From Ruminococcus sp. Phil11 (GTDB lineage: Bacteria; Bacillota; Clostridia; Oscillospirales; Ruminococcaceae): a stretch of DNA of 64,000 nucleotides. Below are positions 39,394 through 51,629 of the stretch, piece after piece; within the stretch, counting starts at the first letter, position 1; each line of letters starts with the position of its first letter. Made by a program: the position numbers and the translations under genes. The notes beneath the pieces are model-generated. The model had not been told where the DNA came from, did not search any database, and saw only the letters and a list, made by a program, of their open reading frames with translations. The DNA lies in NCBI GenBank assembly GCA_001940925.1, contig MSGZ01000043.1:9216-73215 (forward strand), written 5' to 3'.

Positions 39394-39422
39394 ATTATAG
39401 CACATTATCCGGAAAAGTGCAA
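39394..39422 (-). promoter_or_regulatory. Promoter of the ACT-PFL-GH3 operon
   Basis: On the minus strand TTGCAC (39417-39422) is 17 bases from TATAAT (39394-39399). The spacer between here and the integrase (39423-39650) has no gene and includes the probable left end of the accessory element. Confidence 0.82.
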
Positions 39423-39576
39423 TGGGCGTGCATACAAAAATTATACTGTTTCACTTCATGGGAGCGATCACGGCGGCGGGCACTGCCCGCTTATAGCATA
39501 TTAACCCGGATTTTTCAACCCTCGCCGCGAAATTGCGATGTTATCAGTCGATTTCATCGGTCAGGTCTGCTGATTT

Positions 39577-39650: not shown

Positions 39651-40853
39651 TCAGTCAGCTTCACGCTTCGGCATTTTCGGCATTTTCGGCATTGCTTTCG
39701 TCACAGCCTCGCAGCAGTGCAGATCATTCTTTTTCAGCGCGTGAGAGTAAATCCTTAGGGTGACATCCGGTCTGGCGTGTCCTGCTCGCTTGGCAGCATC
39801 CGCAATGCTGATCCCTGCCTGAAGCTGAAGGCTAACCGATGTGTGCCGGAACATATGGGGATGGATTTTTTGCAGCCCGTGCGTCTTGGTAAAACTGTTC
39901 AGAAACGCCCGCACAGTATCCGGATTGATACAGCCGCCGTATCGTTTTTCGGCGTAGAATAGGGCATTTTCCCCGTTATTCCACTTGCTGCCGTAACTTT
40001 CTGCCTTTTTGAGATAGTAGACACGATACTCGTGGAGCATATCCATAATGCCGTCATCAAGCGTCAGCCACCGATCTCCGGCATTCGTCTTGCAGCCGTC
40101 CACAATCTGTGAGCCGGATTTACCGCAAACAAAGTGTCGGCAGATATGAATGCGGTTGCTCTCAAAATCAATACTGTCCCATGTCAATGCACAAATCTCC
40201 CCAATGCGGCATCCTGTGGCAAGCATCACGCTGAACAGCACCTGATACATATAGTGCTTGCTGTCGGCATAAAGCGCCGTGAAGAATGCATTGATTTCTT
40301 TCTCGCTGAGTGCCTGCACTTCTTTCGCATCACGCTTCGGCGGCATCGCTGCACTTGCGTAGTTGCGGGGAATCAGATTCTCTTTGAATGCCATTGCAAG
40401 CATCGAATGGATGAAAAGGTGATACTGATAGACCGTCGCCTTTGACACGCCCGCATTGAGCATATCCGAATACGCCTTATTGATCGCCGCAGGCGTGAGT
40501 TGCTTGAGCTGGATATGCCCGATGTAGGGCGCTACTCGCTTTCGGCAGCCGGTGTAGCTGTAGATTGTCGAAGGCGAAAGTCCTGCCTGCTCCTTCATGC
40601 CGATTGCGTATTCGCAGTAGCTGTCAAAGGTGATATGCGAATCGCTAATCGTATGCTCCTCAATTTGCTTTTCAAAGATCGCGCCTTGCTTTTCAGCATT
40701 CTTTCGGTTCCATACTTCGGACTTGCTGGTATCATACTTGATTGATAGTGTCCTGAAAATCTGCCTGTAAGTCTGCGTATCACGGTGATCGAACACACGA
40801 ATGCGATACGAGGTGATCTTCCCGTCCTTGTTTCTGCGTTCCTGAATATTCAT
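39651..40853 (-). CDS. Tyrosine-type site-specific integrase
   Basis: The 400-residue recombinase has an N-terminal arm-binding domain (about 1-60), a SAM-like core-binding domain (about 70-170) and the catalytic domain. Catalytic residues are R216 (TGCRIGE), H333 and R336 (HMFRHT), H359 (GHARPD) and Y369 (LRIYSH), so it should be active. The C-terminus has a short tandem PKM repeat (KAMPKMPKMPKREAD). The start overlaps the upstream small ORF by 4 bases. It is of the Tn916/phage integrase type and marks the left end of the element. Confidence 0.93.
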   Translation of the reverse strand: MNIQERRNKDGKITSYRIRVFDHRDTQTYRQIFRTLSIKYDTSKSEVWNRKNAEKQGAIFEKQIEEHTISDSHITFDSYCEYAIGMKEQAGLSPSTIYSYTGCRKRVAPYIGHIQLKQLTPAAINKAYSDMLNAGVSKATVYQYHLFIHSMLAMAFKENLIPRNYASAAMPPKRDAKEVQALSEKEINAFFTALYADSKHYMYQVLFSVMLATGCRIGEICALTWDSIDFESNRIHICRHFVCGKSGSQIVDGCKTNAGDRWLTLDDGIMDMLHEYRVYYLKKAESYGSKWNNGENALFYAEKRYGGCINPDTVRAFLNSFTKTHGLQKIHPHMFRHTSVSLQLQAGISIADAAKRAGHARPDVTLRIYSHALKKNDLHCCEAVTKAMPKMPKMPKREAD

Positions 40854-41444: not shown

Positions 41445-41720
41445 TCATTCCGCACCGCCCAGATAATCAAGCAACGACTGCTTACTGATGAGGATTTTGC
41501 CGCGCTTGCCCTCACCGGTACGGATGTAGCGAACGCGCCCCTGCGCGACCAGTTTGCGGACGGTATGCTCGAAAATGCCCCTGACCGCTTCAGTGCATTC
41601 CTTGATCGTGAACATTTCCATTGGCGGTGTCTTTGCCTGCGGATTGGCAGGCGCGTCATCAACGAGTTCGGTCAGAAGATCGAGGATGCGGTCAATGACT
41701 TCTTGCTGGTTTCGTTTCAT
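41445..41720 (-). CDS. Excisionase-like DNA-binding protein
   Basis: The 91-residue protein has a winged-helix/MerR-like pattern: MFTIKECTEAVRGIFEHTVRKL, a wing with RYIRTGEGKRGKILISKQSLLDYL, and a short acidic N-terminal helix. This is the layout of Xis/excisionase-family proteins that bend att DNA and steer the integrase toward excision. A GGGAGG site precedes the ATG. It is on the same strand as the integrase, upstream of the hairpin array. Confidence 0.75.
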   Translation of the reverse strand: MKRNQQEVIDRILDLLTELVDDAPANPQAKTPPMEMFTIKECTEAVRGIFEHTVRKLVAQGRVRYIRTGEGKRGKILISKQSLLDYLGGAE

Positions 41721-41954: not shown

Positions 41955-41992
41955 AAAAAAGCCCTGCCCACTGATCGAACAGCAAGCAAGGC
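41955..41992 (-). terminator. Terminator of the helicase operon
   Basis: On the minus strand GCCTTGC (41986-41992) pairs with GCAGGGC (41961-41967, one wobble) and is followed by TTTTTT. The remaining spacer to the excisionase-like gene (41721-41954) has no supported gene; it holds loosely repeated AAACG motifs and presumably that gene's promoter, which is not clear-cut. Confidence 0.75.
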
Positions 41993-42015: not shown

Positions 42016-45000
42016 TCATTTTTCGAGGAATATATCCGGCAGAATAATCGCATATTCCTGTCCGGCGGTATCATCTTGACTCCGCCATGCGACCACAAAC
42101 CGCACTCGTGCAGACTGGACGCGATACCCCTTTGCCAGCAAGCCGTTCAGTGTACCCTGTGCCGCTTTGGACAGCATTGCGACAGAATAAGTTTTTCCTC
42201 CTATCTGAGCATACAATTCCTTCCCCTGCAATGTCAGTGTCGTACCGCTGTGTAAAGCAAAAACCAACTTCTTTCTTGGGATAAAATAGTTCAATACCAC
42301 ATCTTTGTGTGTCAGCTGCAATGTAATTTGCTCCGGCTCCGGATATATGACCGGATCATCCGTGATTTCATCGGATAAACCGTCAAAAGCATGGTTGTTA
42401 TAGTGCAGATACAGTTCCGATTTTGCTCTCGTCATACCGACATACAGCACACGCCGTTTCTCGTTGTTACTGAGATCCACACGATTCAGCATCAGATACA
42501 CACAGTCAAATTCATGTCCCTTTGCCTTATGAATGGTCGACACAACGACTTCGCTGTCATTGGGAAAACAGAAGTCTGCAAACTGCGATTCGCGGATGAA
42601 GGCTTCCAGATCTGAGCGATATTTCTTCTCATTGACCGACGCAAACCGTTCCAGCAGGCTCAGCACAAGGTCAAGGCATTGACTGCTTTCATATTTTTCT
42701 TTCAGATCAGCAATTGCTTTTATCCACTGTTCATCGGATATGATTGGGTGATTCTCTTTTCCGGTATACTTCAAGAACATCCGCAGTTCTGCTAGATCAT
42801 AGAGAGAGAACCCGTCTGAACTCTGAATCAGCCGCGACGGAATCTGCATCTGCCGCAGCAGACCGTTCACACGCAGGGCTTCATCATTCGTGGAAGTAAG
42901 AACGCAAATCGTCTTACCCTGTGCGCGATTACTGATGATGTTCTGCACAATCGGGTATTCTAAGTTATTACTTCTATGCCGAATCAGCCGCACAATGCCG
43001 GTATCCTTGCGAACAGCGCAGATCGGTTCGTTTTTCATTCTATCCAGAATCGTCTCAGCGAACCGATTTGCCAAATCGACAATTTCAGGAGTGCTGCGGT
43101 AATTATCCGGCAGATCATATTGCTTTGCACCGTGATTCGTAATAAATGAGCGCATAAAACGGGAATCCGAGCCGCGGAATGCATAGATGTTCTGATCGTC
43201 ATCACCGACCGCTATCACTCGCATATTGTCATTACGTTCCATCAGCGCACAGATCAGGTCAAATTCATGTGTATCCATGTCCTGTGCTTCGTCGATTACA
43301 ACGATTGTCTTGGTAATGCGGATTTGTTCGACCTCTCCGGCACGAATCATCGCTACCGCACGCGGCACGATGTTCTCAGACTGTTCCAGAGAGCCGATTT
43401 TGCCGAGCAGGTCAAAGCAGTACGAATGGAATGTCTTGATTTCGACGAATTTCGCCGCATTGCCGATCAGAGCCAGCAGACGCGCCTTGAATTCCGTTGC
43501 GGCGGCGCGAGAGAAGGTCAGCATCAGCAGCTGTTCATACTTCACATCATCGAGCATGACGAGCGCTGCCAGCTTATGTACCAGCAGCATCGTTTTTCCG
43601 CTGCCGGGACCGGCTGCAACCACGATATACTGCGATGAAGCATCGTCGATGATCTCACGCTGCCGGACTGACAGTTTACCCATGAGTTCATTGTATTTCT
43701 GCGGTGTGATATTACGATTGATTTCGCCCATGCGATTGCCCTTGAAATACTTGGACAGAAACGCCTTATAGTCCATCTGAAAGTAATCACTGACGAATTG
43801 AAGTGCATCATCATAGTTCTGCACCATCATGTTCGCATATTCGCCGACAATGTGAATCATCTGGATTTTTTGCTTGTAAAACTCGTTGAGCTGTCGGTAA
43901 TCATCCTGCTTGTACTGAATACGGTTGTCCATTTCCAGTCTGCGGATGTGCATAGTCTGATACAGCACCAGAAAACCGCCTTCCAGCGTCAGCGCTTCGA
44001 TCTTCGTGAGATAGAGCAGCGCATCTTGAACAGCATCAGCTGTAACTGGAGTAACTGTTGTGAGCTGTGCGTTATATGCTTCCTGCAATTCCAGTACAGA
44101 GAACAGCACCTGCGTTTCGCCCTTCTGATTTGCAGGTAAACCTGCGGCTCTGTCATACAAGAAACCGACAATGAACTTTGCAAGCGCAATTCGGCTGATG
44201 AACAGATCTGTCAGCTTGATCATCTCAATCTTCGGGATGATCTCCCGCGCCTTTTCCGTTTGGGAATTGGTTTTCTGAATAAATCCGCGGATTGTCCAGT
44301 AAAACAGAACGGTTTTCAGGGATTTGACAGATGTCCCTTTGATTCCCTGCTGCTCTGCCTGTTCATTGATCTCTTTCAGATTAAGCGTCAGCGGTTCATC
44401 GGTCATAAGATTCAGCAGCATCTGTTCAAGTTGCGCATACCGTTCCAGTATCTTCATTGACTTATTTTCAGAATCCGAGCGCTTGATATAGGCGCTCATA
44501 TCCTGTGAATCTGCAAGAAGTTTTTCCTGCCGCAGCCGGTTGACCGCTTCGATCACGCTTTCGCGGGACAGACCAAGTGTATCGGCAAGGTAGTCGATAC
44601 GACTTTCGCCCTCATCTTTCTTTCCGGCTGTCGTTTTTTTCGTGAACAGCTCGTTCATGATGCGCAGCGCATTTGTCTCTGACTGCTCATCAAAGAATTC
44701 AGAGGAACGGATGCGCTCAGATGCTTCTGCCATTGTATCAACCATGATACTGGTTGCATACACATGCGGGATATTCTGACCGCGCTCGATATATCCGGCG
44801 TTTTCCAGCGCGGCAATCGCCGTTTTCACCTGTGTTTCCAGTTCCGGACGGTGTTCATCATCCCAGCCCGCTTCTCTTGCGATCTCCAATGCAGAGCGGC
44901 TGAATGACTGCCGGTTGCCGGAGAGCTTTTTGATAGCGCGCCAGACCTGTTGAATCTCACTAAGGCTGAGCTTTGTTTGATTCAGCCGGATAAAATGCTT

Positions 45001-46794
45001 GTCAAGGTCGCCTTCATTGAAAAGAACATAGCAGTCTGCATTCAGATTCGGATCGCGTCCCGCTCTGCCTGCTTCCTGCACATAGTTTTCCAGCGAATCG
45101 GAAATGTCATAGTGAATCACCAGACCGACATCCTTTTTGTCCACGCCCATGCCAAAGGCAGAGGTCGCAACAATGATCTGCACCTCTCCGGCAATAAATG
45201 CCTCCTGATTCTCGACTTTTTCGCTGCTGTCCATTTTGCCGTGAAACGGTCTTGCTTCGTAGCCGTCATCTGTCAGCTTCTGCGCGATCTGCACAGTGCG
45301 CTTGGTACGGGACACATAGATGATCGTCGGGCAGTTCTTCTGCTCGATCAGTCTGCGCAGCGTATCATATTTTTCGTTATCATCTGCCTGATACAGCACC
45401 TCATACCGGAGATTGCTGCGGGCGGCAGATGTAGCATACAGTTCCAGATCAAGCCCCAGCTTCACCTTGAAATAGTCGCGGATATCCTCAATGACCTTCT
45501 GTTTTGCGGTTGCAGTAAAGCAGGATACCGGAATCGAATAGCAGATATTCTTCTTTTCCTGAAGATGACGAATAAAATCACCGATATAGAGATAGTCCAC
45601 GCGGAAATCCTGTCCCCACGCAGAGAAGCAGTGTGCTTCATCTATGACAAACCGCACGACATTCCGCGAGAGAAGCAGCTTCTCAATTGTGCGGGACCGC
45701 AGCGATTCCGGCGAGATGTAGAGCAAAGATGCAATGCCGTTCTGTACGCGCTCGATCGCTTCAGCACGCTCCACAGCATTCAGCAGACCGTTGATTGTGA
45801 CTGCATCGGTAATGCCGCGTTCTGCCAGATTATCCACCTGGTCTTTCATCAGTGATTGCAGCGGCGAAATGATTACGGTCAGACCTTTGGCGTTCTCGCC
45901 AGCCATGAGCGCCGGGAGCTGAAATGTGATCGACTTACCGCCGCCGGTCGGAAAGATCGCAAGCAGCGATTTATTGTGAACAGCAGCATCGGCAGCGCGT
46001 TCCTGTAACGGTTCGCCTTCGTATGTACGGAAGGACGGGTAGCCGAATATCTCAGTCAGTTTGCGTTTGACATCCAGCTTTTGCGCACAGTAAGGGCATC
46101 CCTTTTCACAGGGATGATTGCGCAGCACACGCATATAGTTGTCCACCAGCGGGTAATTGATCTGAACCCACGGCGGCGTGATCGAATGCCGGTCATCAGC
46201 AGAGATCAGCGCAAGGCAGTAGGCAAGCTCGCGCGGATGATTCAGAACCATAAAAGGCAGCGGCGCATTGGCACAGATTTTGCCGTCAAAATATACCGCA
46301 ATCAGCTTGACGGCATCGTTATCCGCAGCAAAATCTAGATATGCGAAGAAACCGGAGAACTCCGGCAGTTGATGCAGCAGAAGATACCAGATCTGTTTCA
46401 GCGTATCGTCCAGCTCGTCAAATGCCGTGACTTCATCGCAGAACAGCTCAAATGATTTCACAGCATCATCCAGTGGATTGCTGAGAGAATCTGTCTGGAG
46501 CTTATCATCTTTCAGAAGCCGGTGATACGGTTTTGCAGGAAACAAAAGCGGCGACAGGCAGAGCGTGTCAACATACTGCGCTGACGCACTCTGCGGTATC
46601 GCCGCTTCAAGATAATTCAGGTCAAAGGCAAGAATATTGTGACCGCCGATGAAGTCGTATTCCTTGACAAACGCAGTGAATTCCCCCACAGGTGCAGCGT
46701 GAAACTGACGCCCGTCAGAATCGACTGCGCCAATATCCAGTATCTGCCCGTTTTCGGGATTGATCTCTGCGTCAAAGAATACGATTGATTTCAT
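42016..46794 (-). CDS. Exonuclease-RecQ-UvrD fusion helicase
   Basis: This 1592-residue protein joins three enzymes. Residues 1 to about 140 are a DnaQ-like 3'-5' exonuclease (FFDAE with D8/E10, HNILAFDL with D58, and D109/D110). A CEKGCPYC cysteine cluster follows. About 265-640 is a RecQ-type superfamily 2 helicase (FPTGGGKS with K287, DEAH from D385, VQEAGRAGRD). About 1045-1480 is a UvrD/Rep superfamily 1 helicase (AGPGSGKT with K1067, DEAQD, GDDDQNIYAFRG, NYRS, STIHKAKGHEFD, VGMTRAKSEL). All key motifs are intact. It likely unwinds and trims DNA ends. AGGTGA lies just before the ATG. It is the last gene of the cargo operon. Confidence 0.92.
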   Translation of the reverse strand: MKSIVFFDAEINPENGQILDIGAVDSDGRQFHAAPVGEFTAFVKEYDFIGGHNILAFDLNYLEAAIPQSASAQYVDTLCLSPLLFPAKPYHRLLKDDKLQTDSLSNPLDDAVKSFELFCDEVTAFDELDDTLKQIWYLLLHQLPEFSGFFAYLDFAADNDAVKLIAVYFDGKICANAPLPFMVLNHPRELAYCLALISADDRHSITPPWVQINYPLVDNYMRVLRNHPCEKGCPYCAQKLDVKRKLTEIFGYPSFRTYEGEPLQERAADAAVHNKSLLAIFPTGGGKSITFQLPALMAGENAKGLTVIISPLQSLMKDQVDNLAERGITDAVTINGLLNAVERAEAIERVQNGIASLLYISPESLRSRTIEKLLLSRNVVRFVIDEAHCFSAWGQDFRVDYLYIGDFIRHLQEKKNICYSIPVSCFTATAKQKVIEDIRDYFKVKLGLDLELYATSAARSNLRYEVLYQADDNEKYDTLRRLIEQKNCPTIIYVSRTKRTVQIAQKLTDDGYEARPFHGKMDSSEKVENQEAFIAGEVQIIVATSAFGMGVDKKDVGLVIHYDISDSLENYVQEAGRAGRDPNLNADCYVLFNEGDLDKHFIRLNQTKLSLSEIQQVWRAIKKLSGNRQSFSRSALEIAREAGWDDEHRPELETQVKTAIAALENAGYIERGQNIPHVYATSIMVDTMAEASERIRSSEFFDEQSETNALRIMNELFTKKTTAGKKDEGESRIDYLADTLGLSRESVIEAVNRLRQEKLLADSQDMSAYIKRSDSENKSMKILERYAQLEQMLLNLMTDEPLTLNLKEINEQAEQQGIKGTSVKSLKTVLFYWTIRGFIQKTNSQTEKAREIIPKIEMIKLTDLFISRIALAKFIVGFLYDRAAGLPANQKGETQVLFSVLELQEAYNAQLTTVTPVTADAVQDALLYLTKIEALTLEGGFLVLYQTMHIRRLEMDNRIQYKQDDYRQLNEFYKQKIQMIHIVGEYANMMVQNYDDALQFVSDYFQMDYKAFLSKYFKGNRMGEINRNITPQKYNELMGKLSVRQREIIDDASSQYIVVAAGPGSGKTMLLVHKLAALVMLDDVKYEQLLMLTFSRAAATEFKARLLALIGNAAKFVEIKTFHSYCFDLLGKIGSLEQSENIVPRAVAMIRAGEVEQIRITKTIVVIDEAQDMDTHEFDLICALMERNDNMRVIAVGDDDQNIYAFRGSDSRFMRSFITNHGAKQYDLPDNYRSTPEIVDLANRFAETILDRMKNEPICAVRKDTGIVRLIRHRSNNLEYPIVQNIISNRAQGKTICVLTSTNDEALRVNGLLRQMQIPSRLIQSSDGFSLYDLAELRMFLKYTGKENHPIISDEQWIKAIADLKEKYESSQCLDLVLSLLERFASVNEKKYRSDLEAFIRESQFADFCFPNDSEVVVSTIHKAKGHEFDCVYLMLNRVDLSNNEKRRVLYVGMTRAKSELYLHYNNHAFDGLSDEITDDPVIYPEPEQITLQLTHKDVVLNYFIPRKKLVFALHSGTTLTLQGKELYAQIGGKTYSVAMLSKAAQGTLNGLLAKGYRVQSARVRFVVAWRSQDDTAGQEYAIILPDIFLEK

Positions 46795-46873
46795 TAGTTC
46801 ACCTATTATGATTGATCTCTATTTACGTTTTGCTTTCGTCTTTTTGAATCTGCACCAAGGATTTATTACAGAC

Positions 46874-47338
46874 TTATATCATCTGATCATTCAGAATGTG
46901 GTTCCTCTCTATGTTTTTCAGCCATTCACGCATGGCAAGATATATTTCATATGGACTCTTATAATCTCTTATGGGATAATCGTTCATTTCTTCGGCACCA
47001 TTATTATCCCAATCCATTGATAGGTATATAGTCATTTCTCCACTGCGCTCCATAGAGTCAATCGACATTTGATAACCATTAGGAAGAATAAAATAGATAA
47101 TTCCATCGGTTACAGTCCATGGATAGTCTTTGCTGAATTCTTTTAAGATACGAATCCTATACGTTCTCAGTTTTTTTCGCAGTTTCAATTCTTCTTGTAT
47201 TTGTTGACAGTAAATCACATAGCTCCTTTTAGCTTCCTCTGGTGCATCATCATTAATCACTCGGGCTCCATTTTCAGTAAAATGAAACCATTCTTCATTA
47301 GTTAGCCAAAAGTACTCATATTTTCGCATGTTTATCAC
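46874..47338 (-). CDS. AT-rich inserted gene of unknown function
   Basis: A protein of 151-154 residues (start GTG at 47338 or ATG at 47329), rich in Tyr, Trp, Asp and Glu, with no membrane segment; it contains YEYFWLTNEEWFHFTENGAR. Base composition is far more AT-rich than both neighbours. It sits between a truncated and an intact copy of the 5' end of the helicase gene, so it was brought in as an insert. The GTG overlaps the stop of the truncated copy in GTGA. Size and setting would suit an immunity or accessory protein, but I do not recognise it. Confidence 0.7.
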   Translation of the reverse strand: MINMRKYEYFWLTNEEWFHFTENGARVINDDAPEEAKRSYVIYCQQIQEELKLRKKLRTYRIRILKEFSKDYPWTVTDGIIYFILPNGYQMSIDSMERSGEMTIYLSMDWDNNGAEEMNDYPIRDYKSPYEIYLAMREWLKNIERNHILNDQMI

Positions 47339-47427
47339 CGCCGTTCGTCAGCATCGACTGCGCCAATATCCAGTATCTGCCCGTTTTCAGGGTTGATCTC
47401 TGCATCAAAGAATAGGATTGGTTTCAT
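47335..47427 (-). pseudogene. Truncated copy of the helicase gene 5' end
   Basis: Thirty codons (start MKPILFFDAEINPENG) match the first codons of the exonuclease-RecQ-UvrD gene at 46794, with about six differences in the first 80 bases, then stop at TGA. Its ATG overlaps the stop of the 198-residue upstream gene in ATGA. That is probably the ancestral junction between that gene and the helicase. Confidence 0.85.
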
Positions 47428-48020
47428 TTCTCTGCTTCTCTTTCACGTATAAATGCAATGAGTGTTTCCATGTTATCAAAAATGAATTGCTGCGCGTTCT
47501 TGTCATACACGTTATATTGCGTCGGAACACCTTGTTCATTGATAAAGCTTGTTTCCTTCATTCCAAGCATTTCCCCGTTTTGCGTCGGAATCTTTCTTTT
47601 TCTTCCGGCGGCGCTTTCTACTTCTTGTAGCAGGCCTACAGAGAGAAGCCAACCGGCTATATCCGTTCCTTTTAGTTTCTTCATATGTTCATCATCAATT
47701 AATTCATTTGCAATACCTGCGACTTTTGTAGCAGACAGCGCTGTATTTTGAGGTTGCAGCAACACGATCTGCTCATGTGTAAGGAAGAACGGTTCCTTTA
47801 CCGGTTTGGGCGGTTTTGGTTTCTTCTTTCTTTGTATCTCTCCGCCGTTGTCGATCACCTTTTGCAGTACGCCGGAAACATAAAACAGGCATCGCGAAAC
47901 CCGTACCTGATTGACTACATCATCGTCCCGAACAGGCTGTCCGGAAAGCGGGTTATATCCGTTTGCAAGCGCATCAATATATTGCTTTGCGCGCTGCATG
48001 ATTTCCAGTTCAGTCATCAT
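47424..48020 (-). CDS. Hypothetical protein of the helicase operon
   Basis: The 198-residue protein has an N-terminal helical part (MMTELEIMQRAKQYIDALAN) with a GYNPLSGQPVRDDDVVNQVR stretch, a Lys/Pro linker at about 65-77, and a C-terminal part ending in KIPTQNGEMLGMKETSF and FDNMETLIAFI that may be a winged-helix-like DNA-binding domain. I do not recognise the family. Two ATGs lie at its start, with GGGGGTG upstream. Ancestrally it ran straight into the helicase gene, so it is probably a functional partner of the helicase. Confidence 0.7.
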   Translation of the reverse strand: MMTELEIMQRAKQYIDALANGYNPLSGQPVRDDDVVNQVRVSRCLFYVSGVLQKVIDNGGEIQRKKKPKPPKPVKEPFFLTHEQIVLLQPQNTALSATKVAGIANELIDDEHMKKLKGTDIAGWLLSVGLLQEVESAAGRKRKIPTQNGEMLGMKETSFINEQGVPTQYNVYDKNAQQFIFDNMETLIAFIREREAEK

Positions 48021-48232
48021 GTGTCACCCCCAACATATAATCTGATTCTTCGTCATTTTGCCGCGTGTGCTCCTTCTCAACGAGATTTGAGATCCCCTTG
48101 CGCTTGATTTGATTTTCGCATTGTGATTCTCCTGCCTTTGTGTTTTGAAAGCTCGTCCTGCAATGCATGGTTGCAGGGGTATCGTTTTAGCCTCAGCAAT
48201 ATCAATGATGTAAAGCGATCAAGAGCATTTCA
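48021..48232 (-). other. Spacer inside the cargo operon
   Basis: This 212-base gap holds a stem CCTGCAA/TTGCAGG (near 48155-48175 as read on the plus strand) and a 14-codon ORF (MRKSNQAQGDLKSR) with AGGAGA upstream. It may be a leader or remnant. No clear promoter or terminator was seen, so read-through from the 51256 promoter is plausible. Confidence 0.4.
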
Positions 48233-49252
48233 TCAACTAAGTTCCAGCTGCCTATCACGCTGAAATTCCCCATCAATCTGCGACGCAACCGTTTCAGATT
48301 CCTCGGTGAGATTTCCGTCTTCTGTCAGCAGCGGCGTATCCAGTACCGCTTTGATACTGCTGACAGCGGATGCGCAGGCAGCAATCGCTTTCTTTGATTC
48401 TGGCTTATATGCCCGATAATCCTCGCCCTCATTTGCGACAATATCTTCCATGCGGTATACGAGCGGCAGGAAATATGCATCCAGCCTTGCAAGCAGAGTA
48501 TAGAACATATAGCAGCGTCTGCGGATTGCTTCACAGACAAGCGCATTCTGATGCAGTTCCTCGCAGATCACCTGAGACTGTGCCTGATTCGCTTTGGCAT
48601 TTTCCAGATCTTTTTTCGCTCTTGCATCAGTGATTAAGCCCATTACGCATAGAGCCGGACCGGCGACCAGTCCGCCGAGTACTGCGGTTCCGCCTGCCAT
48701 ACCAAGTCCGCCGGCAGCAAGAGAGCCGCCGCCGAAAAATGCAAGTGTCGCATTGGTTGCAGCTGCACCGCTCAGCGTCGCGATTGCTGTGCCGGTTGAA
48801 GCAGCAGCAAATGTAGATGCGGCACTATATGCGCCGATTGCTGTCAGAGCGCCGCCCATCGTGCCGACAGTCGCGCCCTTTGCAATATTCATTGCGAAAT
48901 TGCCCATTTCCTTCAATTCTTCAAACTCTTTATGATCCAGCGGCATCTTGTTGAGCTCGTCCAGGCCTTCGGATGCCTGAAAGTCAATGTTTTTGATCTG
49001 CTGGAATGTCTGAATAAAGCTCTGCACACTTGAATTAAGGATAAACAGTTTCTCTTTACCTAAATTCTCCAATGATTCCCGGCAGAGATCGCGCTGCGTT
49101 TCAAGTGCTTCTTTGGCATCATCTATGCTGGCATTCGCATCCTGATTGATTGTTTTTGCTTCGCGTGTATTTGCAACAGCCTTGACGGACTTTCCGACAC
49201 CGATCGTACCGGTTGCAGCTGCGATTCCGATAAATAACAAAGGTAACGGCAT
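48233..49252 (-). CDS. Glycine-rich membrane protein of the cargo operon
   Basis: The 339-residue protein has an N-terminal hydrophobic segment (PLPLLFIGIAAATGTIGVG), a coiled-coil-like region (about 25-115), a long glycine/alanine-rich hydrophobic stretch (about 120-210) with GGG and GxxxG patterns typical of glycine zippers, and a helical C-terminal region. This points to a membrane-inserting or pore-like protein. AAGGAG lies 7 bases before the ATG at 49252; an earlier in-frame ATG at 49273 overlaps the upstream gene. Family not recognised. Confidence 0.72.
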   Translation of the reverse strand: MPLPLLFIGIAAATGTIGVGKSVKAVANTREAKTINQDANASIDDAKEALETQRDLCRESLENLGKEKLFILNSSVQSFIQTFQQIKNIDFQASEGLDELNKMPLDHKEFEELKEMGNFAMNIAKGATVGTMGGALTAIGAYSAASTFAAASTGTAIATLSGAAATNATLAFFGGGSLAAGGLGMAGGTAVLGGLVAGPALCVMGLITDARAKKDLENAKANQAQSQVICEELHQNALVCEAIRRRCYMFYTLLARLDAYFLPLVYRMEDIVANEGEDYRAYKPESKKAIAACASAVSSIKAVLDTPLLTEDGNLTEESETVASQIDGEFQRDRQLELS

Positions 49253-49265
49253 GGTGTTACTCCTT

Positions 49266-49943
49266 TCATGCAATCAATGCGGCGATGCTTTTCCGGATGA
49301 TCTGCTGACGTTCTTCCAGTTCCTTTACCATCTTTTCAATCACGGCATAGGGACGATCAGTTGTTTTCAGCCATTCCATTTCAGCATCGAGCATTTGCAG
49401 CGTCTGGATCGTTTGCTCCATTTCCAGAAATACGCTTTTATCAATGTCAAGTTTGCGTGCGGTGAATTTCAGGAATTTACGCTCAATTTCTGCATACTCA
49501 CGATCACTTTGCGCAATTACAAGCAGATTCCACAGCAACAGCTTCGGCGTGATCTCCGAGAATTTGGAGCGTGGGATATGCGTCAGCGCATAATCAGCGC
49601 CCTCCTGAATGACATCATAGTAATCTTCCGGATCAATCGCCTTATCCATCTGCTTTTTGCACTCGCTGATAAATGTCTGTTTCATGTGCGGATACATGGA
49701 ATCAATCGCCATACCCATTTCATCAAACTGCTTCATTTCGTCTTCTGAAACTTCACCGTCAAGTGCAATCAGATAGTACATCATCATGATCGCTGCTTTT
49801 GGGGAGATATTACCTTCCGTAAATGATGGCCGGATAATCTCATGCTCTGATTTTTTCATCGGCTTTACAAGGTCATGAACCTTTCCGAGTGCAGTACCGG
49901 CTTTATCGGCAACGCCGCTTGCCATTTCCTTGATAGTTGCCAT
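49266..49943 (-). CDS. TerB-like protein
   Basis: The 225-residue protein has a TerB-type helical domain: AIMMMYYLIALDGEVSEDEMKQFDEMG (about 50-75), the acidic metal-binding signature of tellurite-resistance TerB/DjlA-like domains, then LLLWNLLVIAQSDREYAEIERKFL, a second turn of the same fold. TerB domains occur in stress and phage-resistance gene sets and are thought to act near the membrane with metal ions. An AGGAG site precedes the ATG. Immediate neighbours suggest it works with the glycine-rich membrane protein. Confidence 0.85.
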   Translation of the reverse strand: MATIKEMASGVADKAGTALGKVHDLVKPMKKSEHEIIRPSFTEGNISPKAAIMMMYYLIALDGEVSEDEMKQFDEMGMAIDSMYPHMKQTFISECKKQMDKAIDPEDYYDVIQEGADYALTHIPRSKFSEITPKLLLWNLLVIAQSDREYAEIERKFLKFTARKLDIDKSVFLEMEQTIQTLQMLDAEMEWLKTTDRPYAVIEKMVKELEERQQIIRKSIAALIA

Positions 49944-49958
49944 GATCCTTTTCTCCTT

Positions 49959-50795
49959 TCACAGCTTAAACGCTTCATCTGAATCCATGAACGCGTCGAA
50001 TTCATCCATATTATGAAACTGCTGCTGATATCCGAGCATCTCCTGAAGCATCGTATTTCCCTGAATGAAGCCATCAATATCGTCATGCAGAATCGCGCGG
50101 TCGATCGCAGCCAATCCTGCTTCTATGGTTTCATAATGCTCTTTGAAATACTGTTCTGTCAACTGGCGCATTTCTTCTCTTGCCTGCATCATTTCGGCAA
50201 GCATTTCAGCACACTGCTGTTCGATCAGAACACGCTCACGCGTTGCCTCACGCGCTTCTTTCAGCGAATCGGCTACCTCATTGACCACATATTCAAAGGC
50301 TTCATAGCAAAATGTTGCGCCGGTTGCGTCAAGAAGTTTGGTGAGGGGTGCCGGAACATGACTCGGGATATCAATGACGCTCAGCGCATGCTTGATTGCA
50401 TTGTTTATTTCTTCAAAGCCGCGGTCAAAGAGCGCTTCCACGCATTCTTCCTGTGATAGTGATCCGCTGAAAAAGCTGTGCAGCGTCGTTCCGATATCCT
50501 GTGCAGCACCGACCAGATCCCTTGTGAAATCTGTTCCGGCAAGTGCATTCAGGAAGCCGGACTCAGATCTTGTCATAACGCCTTGTATCTTTTCAACAAC
50601 AGTATCTGATGTAATGCTGATTTCTGCCAGCGCGTCCATTACAGTTTTTCGTTTAGAAGCAACATCGCGTACCAGTCGGATCATCCCGACAGCCTGCTGC
50701 AGCTTTTCTGCGTATTCGTCAGATAACAAATCGAATACGATAGGCGGTATTGAAAGTTCAGGCACTACATCCTTTTCTGATAAATCTTTATTCAT
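49959..50795 (-). CDS. Hypothetical helical protein of the cargo operon
   Basis: A 278-residue, mostly helical, acidic protein with a possible hydrophobic hairpin-forming middle and a coiled coil (about 185-240, with LIEQQCAEMLAEMMQAREEMRQ as its core). There is no signal peptide. It lies 9 bases after the zinc-ribbon gene and 15 before the TerB gene, so it should be made with them. I do not recognise the family. Confidence 0.68.
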   Translation of the reverse strand: MNKDLSEKDVVPELSIPPIVFDLLSDEYAEKLQQAVGMIRLVRDVASKRKTVMDALAEISITSDTVVEKIQGVMTRSESGFLNALAGTDFTRDLVGAAQDIGTTLHSFFSGSLSQEECVEALFDRGFEEINNAIKHALSVIDIPSHVPAPLTKLLDATGATFCYEAFEYVVNEVADSLKEAREATRERVLIEQQCAEMLAEMMQAREEMRQLTEQYFKEHYETIEAGLAAIDRAILHDDIDGFIQGNTMLQEMLGYQQQFHNMDEFDAFMDSDEAFKL

Positions 50796-50804
50796 ATTCT
50801 TCTA

Positions 50805-51149
50805 TTATTCGGTATCCTGCACCGAATCCTCCTCGTTAGGTAATGAAAACGCATCCTCAAAGTTTAGTATTGTTCTTTCAACTATCTGTAGGGCATTTTT
50901 TCCGCAATGCGGACAAAACCTGGAGTCATCGCCGCCAAATACAGTTGTTTCCCAGTTGTATCCGCAAGCTTCACATTTGAATCTTGTTTTGATTGGCGGA
51001 CCATAAGCATATTGAACAAACTCCAATTCATCAAACGGTTCAAATGCACCATCGCCCCGTTTTGTTCCGCAGTACCGACAGAACAGATCACTTTTTATCA
51101 TGTAGGCATGACAGTTTCCGCATCGGCTCTCATAGTCTGAAGTCTTCAT
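50805..51149 (-). CDS. Double zinc-ribbon protein, first gene of the cargo operon
   Basis: The 114-residue protein has two treble-clef or ribbon modules: CGNCHAY with CRYCGTK (about 10-29) and CEACGYNW with CPHCGKN (about 59-84), then an acidic tail (NEEDSVQDTE). Such small ribbons bind nucleic acid or act as scaffolds. GGAGG precedes the ATG. It heads the minus-strand operon behind a strong promoter at 51228-51256. Confidence 0.8.
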   Translation of the reverse strand: MKTSDYESRCGNCHAYMIKSDLFCRYCGTKRGDGAFEPFDELEFVQYAYGPPIKTRFKCEACGYNWETTVFGGDDSRFCPHCGKNALQIVERTILNFEDAFSLPNEEDSVQDTE

Positions 51150-51208
51150 TCTGCACCTCCGGCAATATCCAGACCGCTTATTTGTTTCTCATATATGAAT
51201 CCTCAAAA

Positions 51209-51256
51209 TGGTATAACAATATGTTTTATTATACCACTTTTGCGTATTAATGTCAA
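51209..51256 (-). promoter_or_regulatory. Promoter and operator of the cargo operon
   Basis: On the minus strand TTGACA (51251-51256) is 17 bases from TATAAT (51228-51233). An inverted repeat TGGTATAA/TTATACCA (51209-51216 and 51229-51236, 12 bases between the arms) covers the -10 box and the start site, so it is a likely repressor site. A mini-ORF ATG AGA AAC AAA TAA follows in the leader. Beyond it, 51260-51625 holds no supported gene. Confidence 0.8.
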
Positions 51257-51411: not shown

Positions 51412-51629
51412 TAATTGGCTGAAAACCACATTAAATCCGGATATACTGATTTGCCTATCCGAACTGATTTTGGCAATATAGCGTGCTTTTCTGCTGACGC
51501 TGGCTTGCCGCGATATGCAGTTCTCATAATAGCACATTACGCGGTAAAAAGCAAGATGAGAACGCTGTATTTTCTGCTGATGCAGATGCTCCGCCGAACG
51601 ATGGATCAATGCCCGCGGGTGCTTCCCGC

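Follow-up and report, generated by a model that had tools for sequence, protein, structure and literature searches.

The gene run examined here looks like two stacked defence modules and not one new six-gene system. We consider it probable that it forms part of an integrative element in which P198, RQU, an excisionase and an integrase make up a backbone and Zr, H278, TerB and Mem an independent front cargo, both blocks, judging by their neighbours, most likely acting against phages or plasmids. The window, as we call the whole stretch analysed, comprises 64,000 nt of Ruminococcus sp. Phil11. Observed directly were the gene order, the overlap of P198 with the start of RQU, the separate distribution of the two blocks, another gene set before RQU in a genus-mate (G585) and the exchange of N-terminal domains among relatives of H278.

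The gene run and its integrative element

The features of the run and of the surrounding element are as follows.

51228..51256, minus strand: promoter-like site TTGACA-17-TATAAT with TG before the -10 (12/12 consensus matches in the scan)
51205..51240, no strand: imperfect, operator-like palindrome covering the -10 (15-nt arms 51205-51219 and 51226-51240, 87%)
50805..51149, minus strand: Zr, 114 aa, zinc ribbons (Pfam PF13240, 1.5e-6)
49959..50795, minus strand: H278, 278 aa, carrying the C-terminal domain of the H family only (profile of that domain, 9.4e-38)
49266..49943, minus strand: TerB, TerB-domain protein of 225 aa (Pfam PF05099, 3.2e-7), whose relatives sit between H and Mem
48233..49255, minus strand: Mem, 340 aa, Gly/Ala-rich hydrophobic core (PADLOC PDC-M09A, 7.6e-28)
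47424..48020, minus strand: P198, 198 aa, its stop overlapping the start of the RQU stub
47337..47428, minus strand: stub of a first RQU start, 92 nt, 89% identical to the second copy
46874..47338, minus strand: P154, 154 aa, GTG start, between P198 and RQU
46796..46855, minus strand: 60 nt matching the end of the AAA gene that precedes RQU in G585
42016..46794, minus strand: RQU, 1592 aa, putative exonuclease-RecQ-UvrD protein (profile matches and invariant motifs)
41961..41992, minus strand: terminator-like hairpin, 13 pairs followed by a T run (scan)
41445..41720, minus strand: excisionase-like HTH gene (PF12728 4.3e-4, TIGR01764 9.7e-4, both below cut-off)
39651..40853, minus strand: tyrosine integrase (PF00589, 8.3e-24)
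39394..39422, no strand: left imperfect 29-nt repeat, a possible attachment site, maybe chance (79% to 51526-51554)
51526..51554, no strand: right imperfect 29-nt repeat; homology to the genus-mate G566 resumes only at 51629

The initial annotation had described a single minus-strand run of six genes behind one strong promoter with a palindromic operator, closed by a terminator. All six genes lie where they had been placed, but a seventh, P154, and the 92-nt repeat of the RQU start had been overlooked; from 51149 to 42016 the run holds Zr, H278, TerB, Mem, P198, P154 and RQU, with a common transcript that remains putative. Promoter, palindrome and terminator were found again, and the palindrome over the -10 was equalled in 7 of 300 shuffles, but the scanned region had no overall excess of such sites, with 23 promoter-like sites against 19.4 ± 4.8 and 13 terminator-like sites against 12.0 ± 3.9 in shuffles. 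The profile searches suggested at the outset returned matches for TerB (PF05099), Zr (PF13240), Mem (PDC-M09A) and the RecQ and UvrD domains of RQU.

That the run is carried on an element with its own integrase is borne out by the tyrosine integrase and the excisionase-like gene beyond RQU. The segment 39403-51628 is absent from G566, where an unrelated 1.7 kb stands in its place; the flanks, which end at 39402 and resume at 51629, are 95-97% identical to the window. The segment is a 12.2-kb integrative element, with an integrase, an excisionase-like gene, putative ends and, in a relative, a site that is filled otherwise; the chromosomal site seems to be used repeatedly, because G566 holds a different insert there. 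That insert (L235, 13275-15008) has inverted repeats near its ends by eye. A third copy of the 29-nt repeat (69%) lies at 39490. The description of the element as AT-rich is right for 39-52 kb, where G+C is 42-52% and most of the 39 kb leftward lies at 53-62% (one interval at 48%), but the sequence at 56-62 kb, to the right of the element, is similarly low (46-52%). The first proposal, a mobile element whose cargo probably serves defence, is supported, the defence role being judged from neighbouring genes.

Separate distribution of the two blocks

The same annotation had joined a DNA-end-processing enzyme and a membrane-acting group in one system and had suggested a neighbourhood survey of whether the six genes stay together. 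In that survey the two blocks were apart almost everywhere we looked and joint in three genus members only; the single six-gene system is not supported, because the blocks occur apart, the outcome that the annotation itself had named as its refutation, and we rejected it on this distribution. Mem was scanned against 84,980 species genomes, and the best 80 of 162 loci were analysed, which come from Bacillota, Bacteroidota, Actinomycetota, Campylobacterota, Pseudomonadota, Fibrobacterota and others. By single-sequence tblastn, which was used near both Mem and RQU and misses distant relatives, these 80 loci held relatives of H278 at 43 and of TerB at 30, a weak helicase piece at four, and P198, P154, Zr or full-length RQU at none. 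Around RQU, Mem, TerB, H278, Zr, P198 and P154 were absent from the stretches fetched in 15 other genomes of the phylum (some only 3.5-6 kb), and no other gene of the set was present in the stretches fetched from six of 21 plasmids. Two of the RQU genomes (G244, G338) have a Mem relative elsewhere in the genome.

An operon search in 30 genomes of the genus gave some match in 26, mostly short pieces of helicase core. Clear P198 and/or RQU was present in eight of the 30, two of them with an internally deleted RQU, and the front block in three, all of which also have P198 and RQU; the six genes thus stand together in three of 30 genus genomes, and in none outside the genus. Two relatives, G562 and G555, carry the set without P154 in matched DNA that is 92-95% identical; in G562, Zr is shortened, TerB is frameshifted and P198 is merely 78% identical, with RQU intact. 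G546 and G547 (the latter on two contigs) have P198, RQU, excisionase and integrase, the front block being absent from the stretches read. A Mob_Pre relaxase (4.2e-45) is encoded in G546 too; in the window, excisionase and integrase lie too close together to hold such a gene. The RQU of G546 is 85% identical to that of the window over the whole length (tblastn); an ungapped residue comparison of the two slips beyond about residue 600. G581 and G565 have P198 with an internally deleted RQU, followed in part by relatives of excisionase and integrase; G581 lacks the front block, and in G565 the contig starts 192 nt before P198, so that the front lies outside the view. The view of P198 and RQU as backbone follows from their overlap and from the excisionase and integrase that come after RQU in genus-mates.

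These distributions bear on the idea of one integrated system, in which TerB, Mem and H278 would sense and RQU would be the effector that replaces the domain missing from H278. The single strong promoter-like site speaks for it, as do the lack of a terminator-like site on the minus strand in the 212 nt between Mem and P198, the absence from H278 of an N-terminal domain that most relatives carry, and the presence of P198 and RQU in all three genomes with the front block. Set against these are the 80 Mem loci (best of 162) with no full-length RQU, the absence of front genes near RQU in the stretches fetched from the 15 phylum genomes, the six of 21 plasmids and three genus-mates, and a TerB gene broken beside an intact RQU in G562; we regard such an integrated system as very unlikely.

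The two blocks were also sought in phage, viral and plasmid records. A phage gene set was considered and rejected, with no RQU (at 1e-100) and no Mem (at 1e-5) in phage records. Viral contigs gave no Mem match with one alignment and four short, weak ones with another; TerB had none in viral contigs, and P154 had no match in the viral search. P198 matched two phage records, both unannotated, and two viral contigs, on one of which (L192) it adjoins RQU head to head, and it was found in none of the plasmid records. Long RQU matches occur in ten contigs of the viral collection, and RQU is present at 1e-100 in 21 plasmid records from Bacteroidota, Campylobacterota, Pseudomonadota and Cyanobacteriota. 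Mem is on two plasmid records only, one of which has it adjoining a WYL gene and a PD-(D/E)XK nuclease gene.

The front module and its exchangeable domains

H278, TerB and Mem are a separate, widespread module. TerB was found in 2 of 148 genomes of the family and Mem in 15 of 398 of the phylum, its own genome included in both counts. Neighbours were clustered at 78 of the best 80 of 162 Mem loci, two without a called ORF having been dropped; in the same run as Mem lie H at 67, TerB at 44, a YkgJ-like protein (CxxCxxCC) at 27 and a WYL regulator at 12 of these loci, and 33 have the gene order H-TerB-Mem. A common C-terminal domain was recognised in 69 of the 72 H proteins from these loci.

Their N-terminal parts vary, in a census whose profiles were partly built from the 72 proteins scanned, which match by construction, and whose labels overlap in six proteins besides 11 with M48 and a BnzB-like middle. 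PD-(D/E)xK-like domains are present as type A in 23 and as type B in 14 (three in both), and HNH-like domains in four (one also type B), both labels being our own readings of sequence. M48 was found in 13 of the 72, 11 of these with the BnzB-like middle, and the middle alone in eight; LRAT accounts for three and an L156-type domain alone for two, and nine have no N-terminal domain, seven of them shorter than 150 aa. Pfam recognises LRAT on L148 (4.4e-19) and M48 on L143 (5.9e-15), and by NCBIfam the M48 domain is HtpX-like, below cut-off. The nuclease reading draws on E...D...QxK columns that are invariant or nearly so in three alignments (A7, A9, A10), on a profile-profile match between types A and B (E 1e-4, probability 58%) and on a weak SduA match of L120 (4.4e-4). 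H278 itself matched none of the seven other H profiles, and no effector domain was found in it. Profiles of H, Mem, TerB and both nuclease-like types found no useful match in the PDB; TerB proteins of relatives had no meaningful PADLOC or NCBIfam match, and the window's TerB matched an NCBIfam anti-phage model very weakly, at 14 bits where the cut-off is 315.

At seven loci, four of them from Campylobacterota, Mem stands beside a very short H protein of 130-145 aa (L174, L177, L178, L179, L181, L182, L185). Such a pair would be the minimal form of the module, lacking an effector part.

The initial annotation could put no system name to the set, which was fair, as none fits the whole. Closest is the PADLOC candidate PDC-M09: the PDC-M09A match of Mem (7.6e-28) covers most of the protein, and some related H proteins match PDC-M09B (L120 at 4.1e-21; four of ten of type B). 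In contrast, the window's H278 has no PADLOC match at E<=1 and lacks the N-terminal half, and the window adds a TerB and a zinc-ribbon gene. By the PADLOC models H278 is a relative and not a member, and it has its C-terminal domain in common with relatives that match PDC-M09B. No paper naming PDC-M09 was found in the open literature.

TerB is listed as a domain of Bunzi (PMC10952713), and Shango uses it too (PMC10952713; PMC10250203). In close relatives the H proteins do match BnzB (L117 1e-116, L116 6e-45, L143 9.9e-46), and in G294 and G295 genes of Mem type adjoin genes of BnzB type; the window's TerB, Mem and H278, however, match neither BnzA nor BnzB, and neither model (that of BnzA has 544 positions) found a match in the window's genome (G000). 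Shango consists of TerB, an ATPase and a DEAD/DEAH helicase (PMC10250203). The window likewise has TerB and a helicase at a single locus, but Pfam finds no separate ATPase among its seven genes, its TerB has no PADLOC match at E<=1 (the SngA model is presumed to be in PADLOC, where SngC is), and its helicase is a 1592-aa fusion mostly found away from TerB. Membership in Shango and in Bunzi was rejected, TerB matching no PADLOC model and the front-block proteins neither BnzA nor BnzB; a generic SngC match of RQU may lie among its 78 PADLOC families, 25 of which were listed. Dionysus, reported as a defence system with TerB that came to light through component modularity (PMC12926258), could be of the same module family as the window's front block. 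In the open literature outside bioRxiv, we found, among the titles listed, no paper on a RecQ-UvrD-TerB defence set, and nothing on a RecQ-UvrD fusion, on TerB with M48, WYL or LRAT, or on phage defence candidates identified with PADLOC.

As to how the front module might work, infection would be sensed near the membrane by TerB together with the C-terminal domain common to H proteins, and Mem could then insert its glycine-rich hydrophobic core into the membrane and perturb it; relatives would instead rely on an enzyme at the N-terminus of H, be it a protease, a nuclease-like domain or LRAT. The same genes could instead serve stress or envelope maintenance, handling metal stress or the quality control of membrane proteins, as the family name of TerB and the M48 domain of 13 of 72 H proteins, HtpX-like below the NCBIfam cut-off, would have it. 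Conflict systems are a better fit to the way nuclease-like, LRAT and HNH-like domains replace one another and to the WYL regulators nearby, and PADLOC counts Mem and relatives of H among defence candidates; we hold the stress or envelope role to be unlikely.

P198, RQU and a probable exchange at the RQU start

RQU was first described as a fusion of exonuclease, RecQ and UvrD, and this description holds for both helicase domains; the exonuclease part is putative, supported by four acids that do not vary and by a weak match between profiles. A DEDD-exonuclease-like part spans about residues 1-240, a RecQ-type helicase about 244-626 and a UvrD-type helicase about 1041-1470. The RecQ-type core reaches 276.7 bits against TIGR00614 (NCBIfam cut-off 219.8), and the motor motifs are unchanged across eight RQU sequences. 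D8, E10, D58 and D110 are invariant in 14 sequences from five phyla, their assignment to three DEDD motifs being ours; the N-terminus matches PDB profiles weakly (1.9e-4 for a molecule named exodeoxyribonuclease III, 0.018 for PolC) and, in Pfam, DNA_pol_B_exo1 alone (0.014). RQU shares the motifs of both motors with RecQ and UvrD/PcrA and four acids with DEDD exonucleases of the DnaQ-like kind, but unlike these enzymes it joins three parts in a single chain, and it scores far under the NCBIfam cut-offs for the RecQ, PcrA, UvrD and DpdF equivalogs. It matched 78 PADLOC families; among the 25 of these that were listed, DpdF (1.3e-93), PsyrT and GajB lead, each covering a single helicase part, a likeness that is one of family.

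RQU was found at E<=1e-130 in 16 of 398 genomes of the phylum, its own included, full-length copies being 51-55% identical and partial ones 44-65%, some with stops. P198 is present in 12 of 148 family genomes, again with its own, most relatives in these genomes adjoining ordinary genes as judged by eye; a second copy in the window's genome, 58% identical, lies beside a gene read as GMP synthase. One relative directly follows HsdR of a type I restriction system (L241), another (L024) belongs to a run that encodes a 1748-aa DruE-like protein (E=0) and two helicases, one of DUF3427 and one of UvrD type, and a weaker one (L033) shares a run with an McrB-like gene. In the second of these (L024 6615-18698), a single run holds the DruE-like protein, a DUF3427/PLD helicase, the P198 relative and a UvrD helicase with a zinc ribbon, with an apparent serine recombinase gene nearby; it resembles a Druantia operon with an unlisted small gene. 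Three of eight aligned P198 relatives end in a 'PWT...' stretch, which we take to be a Myb/SANT-like DNA-binding domain. Two contigs encode chains of 314 and 318 aa with the P198-family domain twice (L027 9169-10113 and L030 1798-2754).

Nine RQU neighbours were picked by eye, without a control or enrichment test, and eight had a Pfam match: D12, N6/N4 and C5 DNA methyltransferases, type III Res, HerA, AAA_21 (AbiLi-like), an SF1 helicase and RhuM-Fic. The defence reading of RQU and P198 comes from such neighbours, namely HsdR, DruE-like and McrB-like proteins, methyltransferases and TIR-AAA. The earlier expectation that the genes lie in defence islands holds in part: some neighbours of P198 and RQU are of restriction or defence type, but ordinary neighbours are frequent, RQU often being flanked by them, and among those listed they vary between loci. 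As a counterweight, then, the defence role is inferred from neighbours of two genes that often stand beside ordinary ones. If it is right, the RecQ and UvrD motors of RQU would start at ends or nicks and unwind foreign DNA, the 3'-5' exonuclease-like domain at its N-terminus would degrade one strand during unwinding, and P198 may bind DNA or the motor and so set the site of action.

RQU could also be an enzyme of element maintenance or repair, acting in replication, transfer or integration with P198 as its loader and having no part in defence. The RecQ and UvrD families have established roles in repair, RQU keeps company with excisionase and integrase within the genus, and it adjoins parA on an Aliarcobacter plasmid and lies within 7 kb of SSB and parA genes on a Bacteroides plasmid. 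On the other hand, it is internally deleted in two copies of the element, its listed neighbours differ between loci, and relatives of P198 occur within restriction and Druantia-like operons; we think a maintenance or repair role rather unlikely.

The start of RQU appears to mark a seam. The P198 stop overlaps the RQU start in G562, G555 and G546, none of which has P154 between the two genes; in the window the overlap falls on the stub, and the first 30 RQU codons are present twice, as a 92-nt direct repeat (89%) flanking P154. The stub reads MKPILFF, as RQU does in those three genomes, and the window's RQU begins MKSIVFF, as in G585. In G585, RQU has no P198 in view and is preceded by a 200-aa gene, a TIR gene (1.4e-21) and an AAA_13 gene (4e-93; PDC-S06 4e-123) that ends 4 nt before it. 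Given the MKSIVFF start and the 60 nt that match the last part of the AAA gene in G585, the window's RQU likely derives from the TIR-AAA-RQU version. Most simply, two versions would have recombined at the start of RQU, leaving P154 and the 92-nt stub in the window. The G585 locus itself (L263 252-8641: 200-aa gene, TIR, small ORF, PDC-S06-like AAA_13, RQU) is possibly another RQU-linked defence operon. The first 45-50 residues of P154 recur elsewhere in its own genome and in two other family genomes (E 6.8e-7 to 3.6e-5; L228 5673-6086, L219, L220).

Having preferred two modules on one element, we tentatively offer a further reading that seems to us possible, short of an even chance: H-TerB-Mem would be a polymorphic membrane platform, and P198-RQU a stand-alone defence pair whose 5' end is a homologous seam for exchanging cargo. 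On the platform, the same Mem and one H C-terminal domain would be combined with M48, two PD-(D/E)xK-like types, HNH-like, LRAT or nothing at the N-terminus; at the seam, the cargo exchanged before RQU would be the TerB-Mem block, the TIR-AAA block or P154. Neither the platform nor the seam was found described in the open literature outside bioRxiv.

If this reading is true, PDC-M09, Bunzi and the window's block would be one large family with a fixed membrane/TerB core and exchangeable killing or cutting domains, which predicts that the core senses and the exchangeable domain acts. RQU would then be a single-protein helicase-exonuclease defence gene, left unnamed because it is annotated as RecQ, and the seam would show the trading of defence genes before a common gene.
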